DNA from: Chloroflexota bacterium
GTDB lineage: Bacteria > Chloroflexota > Anaerolineae > UBA4142
DNA: 64,000 nucleotides
Assembly (NCBI GenBank): GCA_016208315.1
Contig: JACQYF010000146.1
Coordinates: forward strand, 1-64,000
Direction: 5' to 3'
Below the pieces are notes generated by a model. It did no database searches. It had not been told where the DNA came from and saw only the letters and a program-made list of their open reading frames with translations. Positions 12,134 through 64,000 of the stretch are shown here, piece by piece. Positions within the stretch are counted from its first letter, which is position 1; each line of letters starts with the position of its first letter. A program made the position numbers and the translations under genes.

Positions 12134-14455
12134 ATGCTGTACAAATTGGTCAGTCCGCCCGCCGTCGAAGAACATGGCGAGAACATTATCCATCTCTTTG
12201 TGCGCGATGCGAACGGCGCGCCCGTGCCGAACGCGCGCCTCAAGGTGTGGGCGGGTCCGCCGCCGACAGGCAGCCCGGCCTATTGGAATGACGATTTCCC
12301 CTTCCGCAATCCCAATGCGTCCGGTATGCTCGAGTTTGTCGCCGTGACCGGCCCGATGCCGGATACGCGCGATTACTGGATTCAAGCGATTGCGAATGAC
12401 GGCACGCCGCAAAGCGATCCGGTCCAATTCCATTTTCCGCAGGGCAGCACGATTTGGATCACGGCGACCCTTCAGCCCGAGGGCGCAACGTCGGGGCCAA
12501 CGCAGCCGGACGCGGGCGCGAGCGCGCCCATCGCCGTGCAATGGGACGCGCGCTTGACCGCGATGAACATCTCGATTGCGCCCGTTCCCGCGCTCGCGCC
12601 GGGCCAAAGATATTGGAAGATTATCGCGGCGCAGTATCAGGACGAGCAAGAGGCCGGCGGCAACCACAACGTCTACTATTCGGCGTTGAATCAAAATGGG
12701 AATCCGATGGCCGGCGTGCTGGTCCAAATGGATTGGCAAGGCCGCGAGCCGAATGACGTCCCAAGCCAATCGTACACGGACGGGAACGGCACCGCCAATT
12801 ACCCGCTGTACGCTGGCCCCGTGGGATGGAAGCCGCAAGAAGGGCCTGGGCCTTATGCCGCGTGGCTGGGCGATCCCGATCTACGCGGTCGCACGCCGAC
12901 GCAAATCCCCGGCGAGAAATTCGTGGGCGCGGGCTTGCCGATGAATCGGCATGTGAATTTTATCGTGACGTGGAAACAGGTCGTGGCCGCCAGCCCGGCC
13001 GACACGGTTTCGCCGGAACCCGACACGGTTACATCGCCCGAGCCAACGCCCGACACGGCCACGCCCGCTCCGGCAACTTACACGGTCCAGCGCGGCGACA
13101 CGCTTTCTGCGATCGCGCGCAAGTTCGACGTGACGGTCGCGGCCCTCGTCGCCGCGAACGACATCGCCAATCCGAATCAGATCCGAACGGGCCAGGTGTT
13201 GACCATTCCAGGTGTCGCGTCGGAGAATCCGCCGCCGACTCCGCCCGCGCCATCCACCACGACGTACACGGTCCAGCGCGGCGATACGCTCTCGGCCATC
13301 GCGCGCAAATTCGGAGTATCGGTGGCCGCGATCGTCGCCGCGAACAATATCGCGAATGCGAACCTCATCAAGCCGGCCCAAGTGTTGACGATTCCGTCCG
13401 CCGCGCCCGTCCCGCCAAAGCCGGTCGAGCCGTCTGAGCCGACCGTGCCGGAGTGGTACACGCCGCTTCCGCCTGCGACGCGTCCCGCCGGCGCATTGCC
13501 GTTGAACCAGTTCCCGCGCCCGCGGGACGACAATGGCCGCGGCATCCATTTCGGTTTGGACGTCAGTCAAAAATCACTCGACGCGCACGTCCCGCACATG
13601 GTCGAGATGGGCATCAAGTGGGTCCTCATGTATCCCGGCGATGAGTTGCAGGCCGAAAAATGCGCGGTGGCCGCGTGGAATGCGGGCATCATGCCGGTCC
13701 TGCGCCCCAAGTGCCGAATTGATGGCGGGCAGCCGAACTGGCTCGCCTTCGTGCAAGCGTGCAAGAAGCACGACATCCCGGCCTACATCCAAATTTACAA
13801 CGAACCGGGCGACGATCGCGAGTGGAACCACAAGCCCGCGGATAATGACCTGCCGCGGATCTTTGCGAGTAAGTGGGCGAATGCCGCGTCGTTGATCTAC
13901 GATGCGGGCGGATTCCCGGGGCTGCAAATCCTCGGCCAGGAAGAGTTGGTCGCGGCGGCGAATACGCTCCAAGCCAACAATCAAACTCACATTTGGAATC
14001 GCGCGTTTTTCGCGCTCCACAACTATGGTCTCAACCATCCGCCCGCGTATCCATACGACGAACGCAATCAACAAGACCATCCCCAGGCGACGATTCTCGA
14101 CGACGACGCGTGCGTGCTCGGCCTGATCGAGTTCGCCAAATGGATGTACGACGCGATTGGTTTTGTGCTGCCGATGATCGGCGGCGAGGGCGGCTGGCTC
14201 TACGACGCGGGCGAAGACAATCGTTATCCAAAGACGGTTCAACCCTATCACGCGCAATGGCACGTGGAGATGTACGACTGGTTCCGCCATGGTCGCTTGT
14301 CGAACGGTCAGCCGCTGCCCGATTATGTCTTTTCGGTCGCGCCGTGGATTCTGTCCGGCTTTTTGGAAGCCGAGGCATGGTACGGCGGACCGCTCGGCGA
14401 CAAGACGGAAACGATCAATGCGGTCAAGGCGATGACGCCATTCGTCCGCAAATAA
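12134..14455 (+). CDS. Two beta-sandwich modules, two LysM modules and a GH-A-like barrel
   Basis: 773 aa; CGGAGGAAACC precedes the ATG. Residues 1-115 and about 175-285 look like Ig/carboxypeptidase-regulatory modules (VRDANGAPVPNARL, LNQNGNPMAGVLVQ). Two LysM modules (about 315-361 and 376-421) are nearly identical in DNA and protein, so they look recently duplicated. Residues 470-773 form a TIM-barrel candidate with YNEP and GGEGGW as possible acid/base and nucleophile sites of a clan GH-A enzyme. There is no signal peptide. It starts 15 bp after the previous LysM gene, so the two are probably co-transcribed. Likely target is a cell-wall or chitin-like glycan, inferred from the LysM modules. 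Confidence 0.75.
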   Translation: MLYKLVSPPAVEEHGENIIHLFVRDANGAPVPNARLKVWAGPPPTGSPAYWNDDFPFRNPNASGMLEFVAVTGPMPDTRDYWIQAIANDGTPQSDPVQFHFPQGSTIWITATLQPEGATSGPTQPDAGASAPIAVQWDARLTAMNISIAPVPALAPGQRYWKIIAAQYQDEQEAGGNHNVYYSALNQNGNPMAGVLVQMDWQGREPNDVPSQSYTDGNGTANYPLYAGPVGWKPQEGPGPYAAWLGDPDLRGRTPTQIPGEKFVGAGLPMNRHVNFIVTWKQVVAASPADTVSPEPDTVTSPEPTPDTATPAPATYTVQRGDTLSAIARKFDVTVAALVAANDIANPNQIRTGQVLTIPGVASENPPPTPPAPSTTTYTVQRGDTLSAIARKFGVSVAAIVAANNIANANLIKPAQVLTIPSAAPVPPKPVEPSEPTVPEWYTPLPPATRPAGALPLNQFPRPRDDNGRGIHFGLDVSQKSLDAHVPHMVEMGIKWVLMYPGDELQAEKCAVAAWNAGIMPVLRPKCRIDGGQPNWLAFVQACKKHDIPAYIQIYNEPGDDREWNHKPADNDLPRIFASKWANAASLIYDAGGFPGLQILGQEELVAAANTLQANNQTHIWNRAFFALHNYGLNHPPAYPYDERNQQDHPQATILDDDACVLGLIEFAKWMYDAIGFVLPMIGGEGGWLYDAGEDNRYPKTVQPYHAQWHVEMYDWFRHGRLSNGQPLPDYVFSVAPWILSGFLEAEAWYGGPLGDKTETINAVKAMTPFVRK

Positions 14456-14460
14456 AGTGG

Positions 14461-14529
14461 GAAGTTGCAAGTGACTAAAGTGTCTAAAGTGTCTAAAGTT
14501 TACTTCGGACTTTAGTCACTTCCAACTTC
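14461..14529. repeat. Inverted repeat of tandem word GTCTAAAGT
   Basis: Arms 14461-14481 and 14509-14529 match at 20 of 21 positions. The loop repeats the word (GTCTAAAGT). The hairpin fills the gap between the stop of the LysM gene and the TGGAGG site of the amidase gene, so it should be transcribed. Confidence 0.85.
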
Positions 14530-14548
14530 GCACTTCCTGGAGGTTACG

Positions 14549-16612: not shown

Positions 16613-16619
16613 TGAGGCA

Positions 16620-16680
16620 GTTAATTAGTCAATTAGTCAATTGGTCGCTGGTTGACTAATTGACTAATTGACTAATTGAC
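16620..16680. repeat. Inverted repeat of tandem word AGTCAATT
   Basis: The left arm (about 16620-16646) and right arm (16650-16680) are built from AGTCAATT and its complement, with two mismatches over 27 bp and a 3-4 nt loop. The tract sits between convergent genes and could act as a bidirectional hairpin. The same word appears as a direct tandem at 22757-22800. Confidence 0.85.
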
Positions 16681-16685
16681 TCGTT

Positions 16686-22963: not shown

Positions 22964-23470
22964 ATGACCGACACACTAATCTATGGCCCCGGACGCACTG
23001 CAATCAAACTGCAAATCAATGGACAAGAGTATTTGCTCGATGTCCTCCCGATCCAAACCCTAGCCGAGATTCTGCGTAATCAACTCGGGTTGACCGGCAC
23101 GAAAGTTGTCTGCGGGATGGGCGACTGCGGCGCATGTACCGTGCTGCTCGACGGCAAGCCGGTGTACGCGTGCCTGCAACTCGCGATAGACTGCCAGGGG
23201 CGCGCGATCACGACGATTGAAGGACTGGCGCGCGACGGCGAACTGCATCCGGTGCAGCAAGCGTTCATCGCCGAAGATGCTTTTCAATGCGGCTATTGTA
23301 CATCGGGGCAGGTGTTGACGCTGGTCGCGTTCCTCGCAGACCATCCCGACGCGGACGCCGGCGCGATCCGCCAAGCCGTCGCGGGCAACCTCTGCCGCTG
23401 CGGCGCGTACCCCAAGATTGTGAGAGCGGGGCTGCGCGCGAGGCAGTTAACATTTAACAGTAAACAGTAA
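22964..23470 (+). CDS. Molybdenum hydroxylase [2Fe-2S] subunit
   Basis: 168 aa from MTDTLIYGPG, chosen for GTGGAGATC upstream; the track start lies inside the preceding MITE. An N-terminal plant-type [2Fe-2S] ferredoxin fold (CGMGDCGACTVLLDGKPVYAC) is followed by the helical [2Fe-2S]-binding domain (QCGYCTSGQVL, GNLCRCGAYP). It is the electron-transfer subunit of a xanthine dehydrogenase/aldehyde oxidase-type enzyme with the next two genes. The last residues (RQLTFNSKQ) and the stop codon come from the word-repeat tract that fills the gap to the large subunit. Confidence 0.92.
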   Translation: MTDTLIYGPGRTAIKLQINGQEYLLDVLPIQTLAEILRNQLGLTGTKVVCGMGDCGACTVLLDGKPVYACLQLAIDCQGRAITTIEGLARDGELHPVQQAFIAEDAFQCGYCTSGQVLTLVAFLADHPDADAGAIRQAVAGNLCRCGAYPKIVRAGLRARQLTFNSKQ

Positions 23471-23541
23471 CCAGTGGACACTGAACACTGGATACTGAAT
23501 ACTGAAAACTGTTGACTGCTGACTGTTAACTGTTCACTGGG
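23443..23541. repeat. Word palindrome of AACAGT/ACTGTT type
   Basis: AACAGTAAACAGTAACCAGTG on the left is answered by GACTGTTAACTGTTCACTGG on the right, with CACTGAACACTGGATACTGA between. It starts within the iron-sulphur subunit gene, supplies its stop, and ends a few bases before the large-subunit ATG, replacing any clear Shine-Dalgarno site. Confidence 0.8.
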
Positions 23542-28583: not shown

Positions 28584-29644
28584 TGACGCCGTGGGAACGT
28601 TTTGCGACGGTCGCGCGCGGTGGTCAAGCAGACCGCGTGCCGGTCGCACTGATCGTAGATAGCCCGTGGCTGCCCGGTTACGCGGACATTGACACGCTCG
28701 ACTACTTTCTCCGCGAGGATGAATGGCTGCGGATTAATCTTGCGCTCCTCGACCGATTCCCCGAGGTCGCGTGGATTCCCGGCTTTTGGATCGAGTATGG
28801 GATGGCCGCGGAGCCGTCCGCATTTGGCGCGCGCGTTCAGTGGAATCACGATTCGCCGCCTTCGATTGAGGCCGCGCCCGGCGGTTTGGCGGCGCTCGTC
28901 AATCTCGATCCGCCGAATCCCCAGGAGCATGGCTTGATGCCGCTCGTGTTGCAGCGCTATGCCGATGCCGAAAAGCGACTGGGTCTCGAGATCAAGATGG
29001 TCGCGGCGCGCGGACCGATGGCTATCGGCAGTTGGGTAGTCGGCGCTGCCGATTTTCTGCTCGGCCTGATGACGGAACCGGAAGCCAGTCACCGGTTCAT
29101 GGACATATTGACGACGACGATCATCGCGTGGCTTAAAGCGCAGTTGGCCGCGCTGCGCGCGCCGGAAGGCATCATGCTGCTCGACGATATTGTCGGCATG
29201 GTGTCGCCGCAGACATTTGAGGAGTTTGTCCGTCCCTACTACACGCGCATCTTTGCCGCCTTTCCCGGTCTCATCAAGGTCTATCACAACGATACGCCCT
29301 GCCCAAAGCTGGTTGAGCCGATTGCCACCCTCGGCTTTGACGTGTTCAATTTCAGCCACACGATGGACATTGCGACCGTGCAGGCGCGGATGCCCAACAT
29401 CGCGCTCATGGGCAACGTACCGCCGCTTGATCTGATGGTGCGCGGGACGCCGGAGCAGGTGGAGCAATGGGCGCGCGAGTGCATCCAAAAGACCGGCGGG
29501 CGCGGCTTGATTCTCTCCGCGGGTGGCGGCGCAAGCCCCGGTACGCGCGCCGAATGCATTGACGCGCTCGTCGCGGCGCGCACAGGGGCGATTGAAATCG
29601 CGGCGACACGAACGCAAAGTCGGCCTCCGCCGACTAGGATTTAG
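28580..29644 (+). CDS. URO-D-fold protein, copy 1 (possible methyltransferase)
   Basis: 354 aa; ATGA overlap with the LacI gene. It has the uroporphyrinogen decarboxylase/MtaA-CmuA TIM-barrel fold (TPWERFATVARGGQADRVPV, GEIMLLDDIVGMVSP-type core). Canonical HemE is improbable beside a sugar regulator. The zinc ligands of MtaA/MtbA-type methyltransferases (HxCG and a later Cys) are not conserved: YHNDTPCP replaces HxCG and SAGGGASPGT replaces the second Cys. It may bind metal differently or have another reaction. The last 13 residues (ATRTQSRPPPTRI) and stop come from an inserted MITE-like repeat at 29599. Confidence 0.8.
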   Translation: MMTPWERFATVARGGQADRVPVALIVDSPWLPGYADIDTLDYFLREDEWLRINLALLDRFPEVAWIPGFWIEYGMAAEPSAFGARVQWNHDSPPSIEAAPGGLAALVNLDPPNPQEHGLMPLVLQRYADAEKRLGLEIKMVAARGPMAIGSWVVGAADFLLGLMTEPEASHRFMDILTTTIIAWLKAQLAALRAPEGIMLLDDIVGMVSPQTFEEFVRPYYTRIFAAFPGLIKVYHNDTPCPKLVEPIATLGFDVFNFSHTMDIATVQARMPNIALMGNVPPLDLMVRGTPEQVEQWARECIQKTGGRGLILSAGGGASPGTRAECIDALVAARTGAIEIAATRTQSRPPPTRI

Positions 29645-29713
29645 TCCACGAAGGTGGACTTGGCGTTCGTGTTGCCGCGACCCCACCGAGGTGGCGACCT
29701 CGGTCGTCGGTCG
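29599..29713. repeat. MITE-like repeat, GACCGAGGTCGC family, copy 1
   Basis: Terminal arms CGCGGCGACACGAACGC (29599-29615) and GCGTTCGTGTTGCCGCG (29663-29679) match at 16 of 17 positions. Inside are AAGTCGGCC...GCCGACT and GTCCACGAAGGTGGAC hairpins. The right flank repeats GACCTCGGTCG. Copies 2 and 3 are at 45319 and 58745. The left arm lies inside the URO-D gene and gives it a new C-terminus. Confidence 0.85.
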
Positions 29714-33629: not shown

Positions 33630-33636
33630 GTCGTAG

Positions 33637-33740
33637 ATAGGTAAACAGGGAAACAGGTACACAGGGAAACAAGGAGACAAGGAAACTCTGTGTACCTGTC
33701 TACCTGTGTACCTGTCTACCTGTTTACTTGTTTCACTTGG
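33637..33740. repeat. Word palindrome of GGTAAACAG/CTACCTGT type
   Basis: GGTAAACAGGGAAACAGGTA and a following purine-rich stretch are answered by five CTACCTGT/GTACCTGT words. It fills the gap between the binding protein and the first permease and ends before its GGGAG ribosome site. Confidence 0.85.
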
Positions 33741-35896: not shown

Positions 35897-35966
35897 TCAG
35901 TAAACAGTAAACAGTGAACAGTGAACAGATCTTAGTGTTAACTGTTGACTGTTGACTGTTCACTTG
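35896..35966. repeat. Word palindrome of AGTAAACAGT/ACTGTTGACT type
   Basis: AGTAAACAGTAAACAGTGAA on the left is answered by GTTAACTGTTGACTGTTGAC and GTTCACT on the right, with a GATCTTA-type loop. It sits between the second permease and the first ATPase, within the importer operon. A GAGAG site precedes the next start. Confidence 0.88.
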
Positions 35967-45318: not shown

Positions 45319-45424
45319 GGGCGACCGAGGTCGCGGCAACACGAACGCAAAGTCGGCCTTCGCCGACTGGGAATCAGTCCACGAAGGTGGACTTGGTGTT
45401 GTTGTTGCAGCGAATTCATTCGCC
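45319..45424. repeat. MITE-like repeat, GACCGAGGTCGC family, copy 2
   Basis: Starts GGGCGACCGAGGTCGCGGCA and ends GAATTCATTCGCCC. The inner hairpins AAGTCGGCC...GCCGACT and GTCCACGAAGGTGGAC match copy 1 almost exactly. It lies between the Gfo/Idh gene and URO-D copy 2. Confidence 0.85.
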
Positions 45425-45449: not shown

Positions 45450-46622
45450 ATGAATTCACGAGAACGAATCCTTGCCGCGCTGAATCACCAGGAACCCGAC
45501 CGCATCCCCTTCGACTTGGGCAGTACCCAAGTCACAGGCATTCACGTCGTTGCCTATCAGAGATTGCGCGACTGTCTCGGTCTGCCGCCGGTCGAGCCGC
45601 AGATGTGCGATACGATTCAACAGCTCGCGCTGCCCGACGACGATGTGATCGAAAGACTGGGCGTGGATGTGCGCGGCCTGTTTCCGCTGAATAGCCATAA
45701 CTGGAACATCGTCAGCCACGACATCGGCGACTATTGGGAATATGTGGACGAATGGGGCATCACGCACGATCGTCCCAAACCCGATGGGCTGTACTACTCG
45801 ATGGTGCGCTCGCCGCTGGCGGACGCGTCCGTTACCCAAGACAATATTCGCAACTATCGCTGGCCGAATACAGGCGATCCTGCGCGCATCGCCGGACTGC
45901 GTGCGCAGGCGCTCGCCTATCGCGCGCAAGGCAAGGCGGTGATGATCAAGGGCGTGCTCGCGGGCGTGTTCGAGATGGCGCAGCGCGTCCGCGGGATGGA
46001 CGTTTTGCTGATGGATATGGCGTCGAACGATACGCTGGCGGGCGCGTTCTTCGACAAGATGGTGGAACTCAAGCTGGCGTTCTGGGAAATGGCGCTGCCG
46101 CAGCTTGCAGACGCGGTTGACGTGATTTCGGAAGCCGACGATTACGGCACGCAGGTCTCGCAACTCATTTCGCCGCGCATGTTTCGCAAATTGATCAAGC
46201 CGCGGCTGGCGGTCTTGTTCAAACGCATCAAGGAACTTGCGCCGAATGCCAAACTCTTTTTCCATTCCTGCGGCAACGTGCGCCCGCTCTTGCCTGATTT
46301 CATCGAGATCGGCGTGGACATTCTCAATCCCGTCCACGTCCGCGCGACCGGCATGAATCCCATCGAACTAAAGCGCGATTTCGGCAAAGACATGGTTTTC
46401 TGGGGCGGCGGCGTGGATACGCAGGGCGTCTTGCCGACCGGCACGCCGCAAGAGGTGGAAGACGACGTGCGGCGCAATATTGACGCGCTCGCGCCGGGCG
46501 GCGGTTTCGTCTTTAACACGATCCACAACATCCAAGCCGACGTGCCGCCGGAAAATATTGTGGCTATGTGGGAGGCGGTGAATGAAACCTCTTCTTCCGC
46601 GAATCTCGCGAATCGTCACTAA
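45450..46622 (+). CDS. URO-D-fold methyltransferase-like protein, copy 2
   Basis: 390 aa from MNSRERILAALNH, with AAAGAG upstream; the track start lies in the repeat. URO-D/MtaA-type barrel with EPDRIPFDLGST. The zinc motif HxCG is intact (LFFHSCGNVRPLL), but the usual second Cys position is occupied by a His segment (VFNTIHNIQADVPPENI). This is the pattern I associate with non-HemE members near sugar or methyl-transfer genes. The last residues SSANLANRH are encoded by the left arm of a palindrome at 46596, and NuoE has the same SANLAN tail. Confidence 0.85.
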   Translation: MNSRERILAALNHQEPDRIPFDLGSTQVTGIHVVAYQRLRDCLGLPPVEPQMCDTIQQLALPDDDVIERLGVDVRGLFPLNSHNWNIVSHDIGDYWEYVDEWGITHDRPKPDGLYYSMVRSPLADASVTQDNIRNYRWPNTGDPARIAGLRAQALAYRAQGKAVMIKGVLAGVFEMAQRVRGMDVLLMDMASNDTLAGAFFDKMVELKLAFWEMALPQLADAVDVISEADDYGTQVSQLISPRMFRKLIKPRLAVLFKRIKELAPNAKLFFHSCGNVRPLLPDFIEIGVDILNPVHVRATGMNPIELKRDFGKDMVFWGGGVDTQGVLPTGTPQEVEDDVRRNIDALAPGGGFVFNTIHNIQADVPPENIVAMWEAVNETSSSANLANRH

Positions 46623-46663
46623 TCTTGGTTTTTCCTATTCGTGAGATCCGCGAGATTCGCGGA
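46596..46663. repeat. Palindrome of CGCGAATCTCGCGAAT type, copy 1
   Basis: Arms TCCGCGAATCTCGCGAAT (46596-46613) and its complement (46646-46663) match at 17 of 18 positions. The left arm lies inside the URO-D copy 2 gene and encodes part of its tail. The same element is at 62984-63050. Confidence 0.9.
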
Positions 46664-47759: not shown

Positions 47760-47846
47760 TTCGGGATACGGGATGCGAGATACAAGATACGCGCATCCCG
47801 TATCCTGTATCTCGAATCCCGAATTTCGTATCAGAAACAAGGAGCT
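47758..47846. repeat. Word palindrome of GGGATACGGGATGC type
   Basis: ATTCGGGATACGGGATGCGA and AGATACAAGATACG are answered by CGCATCCCGTATCCTGTATC and CGAATCCCGAAT. It fills the gap up to the AAGGAG site of uxaC. Confidence 0.88.
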
Positions 47847-54717: not shown

Positions 54718-57468
54718 ATGAACGCCTGGCACGATTTCCCCGGCACGAATGCCGGGTACGTCCTCGAACTCTACGACCGCTATCGGCAAAACCCCAGTGC
54801 CGTCGACGCGGCGACCCGCGAGTTTTTTTCTCACTGGACACCTCCGACTGATGGGGCTGCTCCGGCAAGTACTGAATTACCAATTACCAAAGTAGTCGGG
54901 GCGGTGAATCTGGCGCACGCGATTCGCGCGTTCGGCCACCTCGCCGCGCAACTCGATCCGCTTGGTAGCCCGCCGCGCGGCGACCCTGCGCTGAATCCGG
55001 CGACGCATGGAATCGCCGAAGACGATTTGCGCCAACTGCCTGCCAATCTTGTAGGCGGCCCCGTCGCCGATGGCGCGGCCAATGCGCTCGAAGCGATCCA
55101 GCACCTGCGCGAGGTTTATTCCGGGACGACCGGCTACGATTACGATCACATCCACATTCCCAAAGAACGCGATTGGCTGCGTCAAGCTGCGGAATCGGGA
55201 CGTTTTTGCCCGCCGCAGGAACCGGTTGATGCAGTTGGATTGCTGGATCGCTTGTCGCAGATCGAAGCATTTGAGCATTTTCTGCGCCGAGTGTTTCCCG
55301 GCAAGACGCGCTTTTCGCTCGAAGGTGTGGACATGATGGCGCCGATCTTGGACGAGCTGGTCGGCGCAGCCGTCGAAGCCGGCACGCGCAGCATCCTAAT
55401 CGGCATGGCGCATCGGGGGCGACTCAACGTTCTCGCGCACATCCTTGGCAAACCGTACGCGCAGATTCTCGCCGAATTCCGAGATCCCGCGCGCGCCCAC
55501 AATTTTCGCGAGTCCATGGGTTGGACGGGCGATGTGAAATACCACGCGGGCGCGCGGCGCGCCATTGACGGCGATTTGTCCAAGAGCGTTGTGATCACTG
55601 TGCCGCCGAATCCCAGCCACGTCGAATCCGCCGATCCGTTGGCGCAGGGCATGGCGCGCGCCGCGAGCGAAAGTTGTGACCGCGCCGGCCCGCCGCGCTT
55701 GAACTCGTCTGTTGCGCTGCCGATTCTTATTCACGGCGATGCCGCGTTTCCGGGACAAGGGATCGTCGCCGAGACGCTAAATTATTCGCGGCTGGAGGGC
55801 TATCGGACGGGCGGGACAATTCACATTATCGCGAACAACCAGTTGGGTTACACGACCGAGCCGCAGGCGGGGCGGAGCACGTTGTACGCGAGCGACCTCG
55901 CCAAAGGTTTCGAGATTCCGATCGTTCACGTCAACGCCGACGACCCCGAAGCGTGCATCGAAGCGGCGCGGCTGGCGTCCGGCTATCGCGCGGAATTCCA
56001 CAAGGATTTTCTGATTGATTTGATCGGCTATCGCCGCTACGGCCATAACGAAGGCGACGAGCCGACCTTTACGCAGCCCCTGATGTATCAGAAAATCGCG
56101 CAGCATCCGAGCGTGCGCGCGTTGTGGTCGAATGCGCTCGTCGCGCGCGGGCTGATTGACGACGACGCGGCAAAGGCGATGAGGCTCAAGTACATGGACG
56201 AACTCCAGAGCGCGCTCGAATCGTTGCAGCCCGAGCGAGACTTGGTCGAGCCGGTGCCCGAACCGCCGCCTCCGAAAGCGGCGCAGCACGTCAAGACGGC
56301 GGCGCCAATCGAGCGATTGCGCGAACTGAACGCCGAATTGCTCAAACTGCCGGACGGTTTTGCGCCCAATCCCAAATTGGACCGCGCGATGAAACGACGA
56401 CGCAGCGCTTTGGATCATCCGGACGAAGCGAGTATTGATTGGGCGATGGCCGAGCAACTGGCGTTCGCCGCGATCCTCGCGGACGGCACGCCCATTCGGT
56501 TTACCGGTGAGGATGTTGAGCGCGGGACGTTTGGGCACAGGCATGCGGTTTTCCACGATGTCAAAACCGGCGCGACCTTCACGCCGCTGCAAGCAATGCC
56601 GCAGGCCAAAGCGGCATTCGCCGTATTCGACAGTCCGCTCTCAGAGAATGCCGCGCTCGGTTTTGAGTACGGCTACAACGCTCAGGAACCGGCGCGCCTC
56701 GTGATTTGGGAAGCGCAGTACGGCGATTTTGTGAATGGCGCGCAAATGATTATTGACGAGTTCATCATGTCGGCGCGCGCCAAATGGGGGCAGACGCCGT
56801 CGCTGGTGTTGCTTTTGCCGCACGGTTTTGAAGGCGCAGGTCCCGATCATTCGAGCGGTCGCTTGGAGCGGTTTCTGGAGCTGGCGGCGGAAACGAACGT
56901 GCGCATCGCCAATCCGACGACCGCCGCGCAATACTTTCACTTGCTCCGCCGGCAAGCCGCGTTGTTGAAAAACGATCCACTTCCGCTGATCGTGATGACG
57001 CCCAAGAGTTTGCTGCGTCACCCGCGCGCCGCGTCGCCGCCGCGCGATCTCGCCGAAGGTCGCTGGCAGCCGGTCATTGACGACGACCGCGCGCGAGATC
57101 AAATCAAGCGCCTCGTCTTTTGCAGCGGCAAGGTCTACATTGATCTCGTGACGAGTGAGCATCGCGAAAAGAATCCATCGGTCGCCATTATCCGCGTCGA
57201 GCAGTTGTATCCGTTCCCCGAAGCAGAAATCAGAGCGGTACTCGACGAATATCAGAAAATCGAAGAAATCGTTTGGCTGCAAGAGGAGCCGGAGAATATG
57301 GGCGCGTGGGCGTTCGTCCGGCCGTTGCTGGGCGAATTGACTGGCGAACGCGTACCGCTCCGTTACATTGGTCGCCCGCGCAATAGTAGCCCCGCGGAGG
57401 GTTCGCTGGCGCGGCATGTGGCGAATCAGAAACAATTAATCGAAAAGGCGTTTGAGAGTAAAACGTAA
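54718..57468 (+). CDS. sucA: 2-oxoglutarate dehydrogenase E1 component
   Basis: 916 aa. N-terminal FPGTNAGYVLELYDRYRQNP, then HLAAQLDPLG, the ThDP site IHGDAAFPGQGIVAETLNYS with ANNQLGYTTEP, and the transketolase-like C-terminal half (GHRHAVFHDVKTGATFTPLQ). It decarboxylates 2-oxoglutarate in the TCA cycle and succinylates E2. TELPITKVV at about residue 53 is encoded by GAATTACCAATTACC, an AT-rich word unlike the gene around it. No Shine-Dalgarno site is seen. The C-terminal FESKT and TAA come from the GTAAAACG palindrome. Confidence 0.93.
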   Translation: MNAWHDFPGTNAGYVLELYDRYRQNPSAVDAATREFFSHWTPPTDGAAPASTELPITKVVGAVNLAHAIRAFGHLAAQLDPLGSPPRGDPALNPATHGIAEDDLRQLPANLVGGPVADGAANALEAIQHLREVYSGTTGYDYDHIHIPKERDWLRQAAESGRFCPPQEPVDAVGLLDRLSQIEAFEHFLRRVFPGKTRFSLEGVDMMAPILDELVGAAVEAGTRSILIGMAHRGRLNVLAHILGKPYAQILAEFRDPARAHNFRESMGWTGDVKYHAGARRAIDGDLSKSVVITVPPNPSHVESADPLAQGMARAASESCDRAGPPRLNSSVALPILIHGDAAFPGQGIVAETLNYSRLEGYRTGGTIHIIANNQLGYTTEPQAGRSTLYASDLAKGFEIPIVHVNADDPEACIEAARLASGYRAEFHKDFLIDLIGYRRYGHNEGDEPTFTQPLMYQKIAQHPSVRALWSNALVARGLIDDDAAKAMRLKYMDELQSALESLQPERDLVEPVPEPPPPKAAQHVKTAAPIERLRELNAELLKLPDGFAPNPKLDRAMKRRRSALDHPDEASIDWAMAEQLAFAAILADGTPIRFTGEDVERGTFGHRHAVFHDVKTGATFTPLQAMPQAKAAFAVFDSPLSENAALGFEYGYNAQEPARLVIWEAQYGDFVNGAQMIIDEFIMSARAKWGQTPSLVLLLPHGFEGAGPDHSSGRLERFLELAAETNVRIANPTTAAQYFHLLRRQAALLKNDPLPLIVMTPKSLLRHPRAASPPRDLAEGRWQPVIDDDRARDQIKRLVFCSGKVYIDLVTSEHREKNPSVAIIRVEQLYPFPEAEIRAVLDEYQKIEEIVWLQEEPENMGAWAFVRPLLGELTGERVPLRYIGRPRNSSPAEGSLARHVANQKQLIEKAFESKT

Positions 57469-57520
57469 AACGTGAAACGTAAAACGTAAACTGCTTTTAC
57501 GCATCACGTTTTACGTTTTA
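57459..57520. repeat. Word palindrome of GTAAAACG type, copy 2
   Basis: Left arm 57459-57484 and right arm 57495-57520, about 23 of 26 matching, share the word with 30163-30240. It begins within sucA, supplies its stop, and ends at the AGGGG site of sucB. Confidence 0.88.
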
Positions 57521-58744: not shown

Positions 58745-58850
58745 CGGGCGACCGAGGTCGCAGCAACCCATGGCAAAGTCGACCTTCGCCGACTCTCTGT
58801 AGCCGACGGAGGTCGGCTTTGCTTTGTGTTGCTGCGACCTTGGTCGCCCG
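58745..58850. repeat. MITE-like repeat, GACCGAGGTCGC family, copy 3
   Basis: Terminal arms 58745-58767 and 58828-58850 match at 22 of 23 positions (CGGGCGACCGAGGTCGCAGC and on). Inner GTCGACCTTCGCCGAC and GCCGACGGAGGTCGGC hairpins. It lies between the convergent ends of sucB and folE and could act on both. Confidence 0.9.
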
Positions 58851-62518: not shown

Positions 62519-63046
62519 ATGTTGACTGAGGAAGAAACACGCGAGATTGAGGCCGAATTCCCCCGTTACGAGACGCGCGAGGCGGTGTGTATCGAGGCGA
62601 TGAAGATCGTGCAGCGGCATCGCGGGTGGGTGTCGGACGAGAGCATTCGAGACCTGGCCGAGTTTCTGGGCATGACGCCGGATGAATTGGATTCGGTCGC
62701 GACGTTCTACAATCTCATTTTTCGCGAGCCGGTCGGCAAGCACATCATTCTCATGTGCGACAGCATTACCTGTTGGATCATGGGGTACGAGCGTTTGCGC
62801 GCTCACATGCAACAGCGGTTCGGCGTCAACCTAGGCGACACAACCCAAGATGGTCAATTCACGCTCATACCGATTCAATGTCTCGGCACCTGCGACCACG
62901 CGCCCGCGATGATGGTTGACGACGACTTGCACCGCGATCTTTCGCCCGAACAGATTGACGGAATTCTGGCGAGGTACGATGGGTCCGCGAATCTCGCGAA
63001 TCCACGCGAATACGTCAAAAACATTAGCGGAGATTCGCGAGATTAG
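62519..63046 (+). CDS. nuoE: NADH-quinone oxidoreductase subunit E with repeat-derived tail
   Basis: 175 aa from MLTEEETREIEAEF; the track start lies in the repeat. Thioredoxin-like [2Fe-2S] protein with ligands in MCDSITCWIMG and CLGTCDHAP. The family normally ends near QIDGILARY; here about 20 further residues (GSANLANPREYVKNISGDSRD) are encoded by a palindromic repeat. URO-D copy 2 ends in the related SANLANRH. The tail is not expected to fold with the domain. Confidence 0.92.
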   Translation: MLTEEETREIEAEFPRYETREAVCIEAMKIVQRHRGWVSDESIRDLAEFLGMTPDELDSVATFYNLIFREPVGKHIILMCDSITCWIMGYERLRAHMQQRFGVNLGDTTQDGQFTLIPIQCLGTCDHAPAMMVDDDLHRDLSPEQIDGILARYDGSANLANPREYVKNISGDSRD

Positions 63047-63050
63047 CGGA
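62984..63050. repeat. Palindrome of CGCGAATCTCGCGAAT type, copy 2
   Basis: Left arm 62984-63003 and right arm 63029-63050, about 18 of 20 matching. The left arm is inside nuoE. The right arm supplies the nuoE stop region and the GCGGAGA site in front of nuoF. Confidence 0.9.
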
Positions 63051-63055
63051 GAATA

Positions 63056-64000
63056 ATGGAGCTACCTCTTACCCAGAACATCTCACAAGAAAACACACCA
63101 CGCGAAATTTACGCCTACGAAAAGGTCGGCGGCTATCATGGCGCGCGCAAAGCGTTGACGATGACGCCGAATGACGTGCAAAAGGTCGTGACCGACTCAA
63201 AGCTGCGCGGGCGCGGCGGCGCGGGATTCCCCACCGGGCCCAAGTGGAGCTTTGTGCCGATGGGCGACGCCGCGCCCCACCCCAAATATCTCATCGCAAA
63301 TGCCGACGAGATGGAGCCGGGCACGTTCAAAGACCGCCTGCTGCTCGAACGCGATCCGCATCAACTGATCGAAGGAATGCTGATTTCCGCGTACGCGATC
63401 CAGGCGGACATCGCCTACATCTTTTTGCGCGACGAATACCGGCTCGCGGCCAAACGTTTGATGCAAGCGATTCAGGAAGCATACCACGCAAACTATTTGG
63501 GCAAGCGCATTCTCGGCGGCGATTACCATCTCGAACTCTATTTGCACGTCAGCGCGGGACGCTACATGTGCGGCGAAGAGACCGGACTGTTGAACGCGCT
63601 CGAAGGCAAGCGCGCCAACCCGCGCAGCAAGCCGCCCTTCCCGCAGACGAGCGGCTTGTTCGGCAAGCCGACCATCGTGAATAACGTCGAAACGCTGTGC
63701 AACGTCCCGCACATTATGGCGCACGGCGCAGAATGGTTCAGAGGCCTGAGCGTTTCGAGCGATAGCGGTACCAAGCTCTACGGCGCGAGCGGCCGCGTGA
63801 ACAAGCCGGGGCTGTGGGAACTGCCGATGGGCGCGACCGTTCGCGAGATTCTTGACCACGCGGGCGGAATCCGAGACGGTTACAAACTGCGCGGTCTGCT
63901 CCCCGGCGGTGCCTCGACCGATTTTCTCACGCCGGAACATCTCGACGTCAAGATGGATTACGATTCGGTGACGAAAGCGGGCAGTCGCCTGGGCACGGGC
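63056..64000 (+). CDS. nuoF: NADH-quinone oxidoreductase subunit F, cut by window edge
   Basis: At least 315 aa from MELPLTQNIS, open to the last base of the window, so it is missing from the ORF track. GCGGAGA precedes the ATG. FMN/NADH-binding motifs: GRGGAGFPTGPKW, NADEMEPGTFKDRLL and GRYMCGEETGLLNALEG. The C-terminal [4Fe-4S] domain lies beyond the edge. It accepts electrons from NADH and passes them towards quinone via NuoE/NuoB partners. Confidence 0.93.
   Translation, partial: MELPLTQNISQENTPREIYAYEKVGGYHGARKALTMTPNDVQKVVTDSKLRGRGGAGFPTGPKWSFVPMGDAAPHPKYLIANADEMEPGTFKDRLLLERDPHQLIEGMLISAYAIQADIAYIFLRDEYRLAAKRLMQAIQEAYHANYLGKRILGGDYHLELYLHVSAGRYMCGEETGLLNALEGKRANPRSKPPFPQTSGLFGKPTIVNNVETLCNVPHIMAHGAEWFRGLSVSSDSGTKLYGASGRVNKPGLWELPMGATVREILDHAGGIRDGYKLRGLLPGGASTDFLTPEHLDVKMDYDSVTKAGSRLGTG

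Follow-up and report, generated by a model that had tools for sequence, protein, structure and literature searches.

The window analysed here is a 64,000-nucleotide stretch of a bacterial contig, and close to its right end the gene nuoE (62519–63046, + strand, start ATG at 62519) is followed in the same frame by nuoF (63056–64000, + strand, extending past the window). An inverted-repeat element (TCCGCGAATCTCGCGAATC...GATTCGCGAGATTAGCGGA, 62984–63050) lies between the two and overlaps the nuoE/nuoF junction: its left arm (62984–63011, + strand) codes for SANLANPRE of NuoE, and its right arm (63023–63050, − strand) bears the nuoE stop TAG at 63044–63046 through a TTAGCGG variant that 10 of the 100 surveyed arms share. 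The NuoE C-terminus reads ...RYDG|SANLANPREYVKNISGDSRD*, with 63 nt of the element read in the nuoE frame. Numbered from the TTG at 62522, the NuoE profile match ends at residue 152 of 174, and the element contributes a tail of 20 residues from residue 155 on.

A second copy (46596–46663) overlaps the 3′ end of a gene of the URO-D family (45450–46622, + strand), whose Pfam match extends to residue 379 of 390. Here the C-terminus is ...NETSS|SANLANRH*, with 27 nt of the element read; the last 8 residues are element-derived, as is the stop, the element's TAA at 46620–46622. A sequence-only reading of this DNA had proposed that the left arm of one palindrome family starts within both genes, and both the inverted repeat and the RNA fold bear this out at exactly these positions. 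It had given the shared tails as GSANLANPREY and SSANLANRH; in both, the part from SANLAN onward is indeed encoded by the element, and in SSANLANRH only the second S belongs to it, the one before being native.

A dispersed palindrome of the genome

Both window copies belong to an inverted repeat of about 67 bp. The left arm CCGCGAATCTCGCGAATC is identical between the nuoE-nuoF copy and the URO-D copy, including a common CCGCGAATCTCGCGAAT that has 6 matches in the window at up to 3 mismatches versus 0.98 expected. Across the genome, a single fragmented MAG of 210 contigs and 6.26 Mb, the arm has 140 matches at up to 2 mismatches, and the reversed control pattern has 0. The copy at 62984–63050 consists of 28-nt arms, 86% complementary, around an 11-nt loop, with a predicted RNA fold of −35.3 kcal/mol (z = −7.25); the copy at 46596–46663 gives −37.2 kcal/mol (z = −7.37). 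Our census covers the 69 copies with fetched loci rather than all 140 arms, and in these contexts the consensus is T-CCGCGAATCNCGCGAATC-nnCGC(T/G)AA-loop-GATTCGCGNGATTCGCGG-A, a long-armed hairpin made of 9-nt subrepeats with the ends TCCGCG...CGCGGA. Stem position 11 covaries between T-A, G-C and A-T (1 in 1000 shuffles), which suggests that the two arms spread or evolve as one unit. Nested palindromes occur at four loci (L029, 1501–1654; L030, 1501–1641; L061, 5726–5801; L063, 785–961), where another family (TGTCATTGCGA... or similar) lies inside the element loop or replaces it.

The exact two-arm pattern is present in 4 of 298 genomes of the class and 1 of 400 genomes of the phylum, the window's own genome being counted in each. 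Single arms with mismatches are frequent among several sister genera, and also in G030, which represents one other family of the class; elsewhere in the class and phylum the signal is much lower or none. We found no exact match among 2.9 million viral contigs, and Rfam 15 returned no match at either window copy with E up to 1. At five loci of a genome from genus g8 (G007; L138, L145, L148, L150 and L154) the element stands within a larger inverted repeat with the ends CAATACCTTCGCCAA...TTGGCGAAGGTATTG, and some copies there have apparent flanking duplications of 5–6 bp; judged from these features, the palindrome in genus g8 seems to have travelled with a bigger MITE.

Position at gene ends and reading frames

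Copies lie a median of 6 nt behind stop codons, and 88% of stop distances are 30 nt or less versus 28.5% under random intergenic insertion, a null built from the gaps of the same loci with genes called by a simple codon-usage script. In 21 of 24 gaps between genes of the same direction the element is closer to the stop than to the start (p = 0.0003), and overlap is found at 14 of 50 stop sides and 1 of 44 start sides. The element is one of several families placed in this way: of the 30 window gaps between genes that measure 25 nt or more, 17 are filled by strong hairpins that belong to different, unrelated families and consist of tandem units of about 7–9 nt, many of them flush with stops or overlapping them. 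Examples are the gaps at 14455–14535, 16619–16681, 23444–23539, 33633–33719, 35899–35964, 47769–47821, 57459–57520 and 58745–58850. The window also holds a 95-nt repeat with an inner inverted repeat, at 29586–29680 and 45319–45413 (86% identical).

Manual reading of the frames showed genes entering the element at their 3′ ends in 17 of the 69 surveyed copies, and about one in four adjoining genes has the repeat just ahead of its stop codon. Among these 17 entries, 11 use the frame SAN(L/R/H)AN, 3 use RESRES and 3 use PRISRI (frame bias p = 0.008). The SAN frame of the arm reads S-A-N-(L/R/H)-A-N-(P/L)-R and closes at an in-arm TAA (...CGCTAA), so that only some 8 residues are added when a copy lands ahead of a stop, which probably explains the bias. 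The earlier reading had proposed a search of the genome's proteins; at least 11 unrelated ones share this frame. The tail-bearing hosts include a GT2 glycosyltransferase, a polysaccharide deacetylase, an ABC permease, a Crp regulator, a hexapeptide transferase, a histidine kinase, an alanyl-tRNA editing-type protein, a luciferase-like monooxygenase and CobD, among others; in these host proteins the start of the element falls at the last conserved domain or behind it.

Complete read-through is seen in a few copies at most (L004, L005, L075). At L005 (421–2796, + strand) a glycosyltransferase reading frame crosses the arm SHPRISRIPKGL (1501–1518) into 430 more residues of unknown relation, with no homologue of this second half in 119 other genomes of the class; possibly, the frame represents two genes fused by the repeat.

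Orthologous gene ends and the rebuilt junction

The earlier reading had called for alignment of NuoE and URO-D orthologues at the C-terminus, and had held that the same tail in NuoE of distant species would refute it. It stood up to this test: the tail is absent from all 27 readable NuoE relatives outside the family in a GTDB contig collection (39–69% identical, several phyla); those from Acidobacteria, Nitrospira, Chloroflexi and others end ...RY-x* or equivalent. Likewise, none of 6 URO-D orthologues (79–84% identity), with alignments reaching query residues 378–384, bears it, and at the URO-D junction of G011, a genome of another genus, a different inverted-repeat-like sequence is in place. 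Within the family, NuoE homologues are also free of the tail with one exception, a NuoE paralogue of G011 (L046) that ends PANHANLH*, an independent event in which a copy of the element at that locus codes for the tail. The genome's own second NuoE (L059) has an element copy 4 nt behind its stop, and junctions of sister genera often have no element or a different palindrome. In G001, also from another genus, a different short repeat (CTCCAATCTCCAA, L045) supplies the C-terminus QSPTSNL* of a NuoE paralogue.

At the nuoE copy the SAN-frame TAA of the arm is replaced by GAA, and the nuoE frame goes on through the loop to the TAG of the right arm. But for this TAG, the nuoE frame would be open into the nuoF ATG (62984–63058); it alone keeps nuoE and nuoF from one polypeptide, and such insertions could create fusions. 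Removing 62984–63050 in silico yields GAT GGG | GAA TAA TG, that is ...RYDGE* with a stop overlapping the nuoF ATG, a junction as tight as many in relatives. A clean immediate stop after excision is obtained in only some cases. The shared C-termini had been ascribed to an element that overran the stops of unrelated proteins; the sharing is real, but the rebuilt junction makes the element appear inserted just upstream of the nuoE stop.

The right arm had further been credited with the ribosome site of nuoF. A GGAG (63048–63051, + strand) stands 4 nt before the nuoF ATG, and an upstream motif of this type precedes 20 of 53 window genes versus 5 in a control stretch, which makes its use as the nuoF ribosome-binding site plausible. 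Three of the four bases of this putative site, GGA, are the end of the element, and the last G belongs to the flank. Only a small number of copies are near enough to a start codon to act in this way, and a ribosome site might also have been available at the junction as reconstructed without the element (GGGGAATAATG).

Origin of the tails and comparison with known systems

These observations are very probably explained by a dispersed, non-autonomous REP/MITE-like palindrome that inserts at gene 3′ ends, with translation running into its arm until an element-borne stop is reached. The pattern behind stops is observed directly, and from the ends of orthologues we infer that the copies arrived by insertion. 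The palindrome would insert in short intergenic spacers, right behind stop codons; where a copy came to lie before the stop, the ribosome would enter the left arm and translate one of its frames. Reading would halt at the in-arm TAA in the SAN frame and, with GAA in its place in nuoE, would continue through the loop to the right-arm TAG. Insertion may be tolerated because the element carries its own early stop, and the shared C-termini would be a by-product.

Traces of the insertion process were sought at 31 paired copies, none of which has a direct repeat of 3–10 nt as a target duplication; their flanks are themselves palindromic (TTNT...ANAA). No linked transposase was found, and none of the five Y1_Tnp loci in the genome (2.1–3.3 kb each) contains an element arm. 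At locus L095 an IS110-family transposase gene (161–1405, − strand) adjoins an element arm (1674–1691), and contigs C144 and C55 end in the same outer flank, which suggests insertion into the palindrome.

An alternative that we regard as possible, if unlikely, is that the hairpin is a selected RNA element at 3′ ends, such as an mRNA stabiliser or processing site, with the coding overlap incidental. The way copies hug stops, the very stable fold, the covarying stem position and the many other palindrome families holding the same position in the window (17 of 30 gaps) would all suit such a role, but covariation is limited to that one position and junctions in sister genera often have no hairpin or a different one. 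An intrinsic terminator was rejected, with a T-tract (at least 5 T in 8 nt) in 2 of 31 copies and A-rich 3′ flanks. Selection for the RNA is compatible with insertion and differs only in the claimed benefit. A different route, by which the element enters the stop codon (T^AA or T^AG) and the SAN frame follows automatically, could account for the over-representation of that frame (11 of 17) and for nuoE, L008 and L029, where joining the flanking T to A(A/G) recreates a stop; however, 3 of 7 testable cases is no excess over the 37% of all flanks that would yield one by chance, one G011 copy is bounded by C...G, and we hold this route very unlikely.

It is highly improbable that the tail is a functional peptide, for targeting or degradation, under protein selection. 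The same SAN(L/R/H)AN does recur in at least 11 proteins, but these are functionally unrelated, the peptide merely mirrors the DNA of the arm, other copies are read as RESRES or PRISRI, and most copies lie behind the stop while orthologues do without the tail. That two coding ends came to be alike by chance is scarcely credible: the shortness of the motif is all that speaks for it, against 140 arms versus 0 in controls and strong palindromes with z of about −7.

Insertion of a mobile palindrome at gene ends, the reading that we prefer, has several parallels. REPs of the GTAG and CGTC superfamilies are short dispersed palindromes that for the most part lie no more than 20 bp from a gene 3′ end, in gaps of the same-direction and the convergent type, and their termini often supply a TAG stop (Di Nocera et al. 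2013, PMC3733652). The present element also adjoins gene 3′ ends at its median of 6 nt, but it has no GTAG or CGTC tag and no adjoining RAYT, and it forms one long-armed hairpin of about 67 bp. REPINs are inverted repeat pairs that form one hairpin unit and are dispersed extragenically (PMC3116915); our element is likewise an inverted repeat pair folding into a single hairpin, but no RAYT linkage was found and each arm is not obviously a REP palindrome. Like MITEs, it has terminal inverted repeats, no coding capacity and a high copy number, but target-site duplication was absent from the 31 paired copies. Among the copies surveyed in this fragmented assembly (210 contigs), no autonomous insertion sequence with the same ends was seen. 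Since it lacks the REP tag, the RAYT and the target duplication, we file it only as a REP/MITE-like palindrome.

Rickettsia palindromic elements (RPEs) lie mostly inside open reading frames and keep both reading borders. The tails described here are, unlike these, short and C-terminal, and coding continues past the element in at most a few copies. Shared with RPEs is a palindrome that is read as a part of host proteins (cited in PMC3733652). Enterobacterial RU-1/2/3 repeats produce in-frame C-terminal fusions past a conserved domain and do away with the native stop, as in the amidase ECA3499 (PMC2759123), but are 103–168 bp long, unrelated in sequence, from enterobacteria, and give longer tails. 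In Coxiella, QMITE1 and QMITE2 overlap all affected functional genes at their 3′ ends by 1–50 bp, EnhC acquires an extended C-terminus, and QMITEs attract IS1111 (PMC5896051). The IS110-family gene beside the arm at L095 resembles this last feature, although QMITEs are larger and of unrelated sequence. C-terminal tails from repeats are thus already established by REPs, RU repeats and QMITEs; the sequence family is new, with no description of it in the literature searched.

That some broader process in this bacterial family sets many unrelated palindrome families, the SAN element being one of them, specifically at translation stops, with repeat DNA rebuilding gene ends over and over, seems to us quite unlikely; the pattern may in that case reflect targeting to stop codons or to post-stop mRNA or DNA structures rather than mere tolerance. 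The group consists of MAGs of the same family, apparently Chloroflexota, in which we found no earlier description of such tails, and it offers a clear and countable example of core proteins, a subunit of respiratory complex I among them, whose C-termini are written by mobile palindromes. Shared C-terminal peptides and reading-frame extensions in such genomes should be treated with caution, as they may be repeat-derived.
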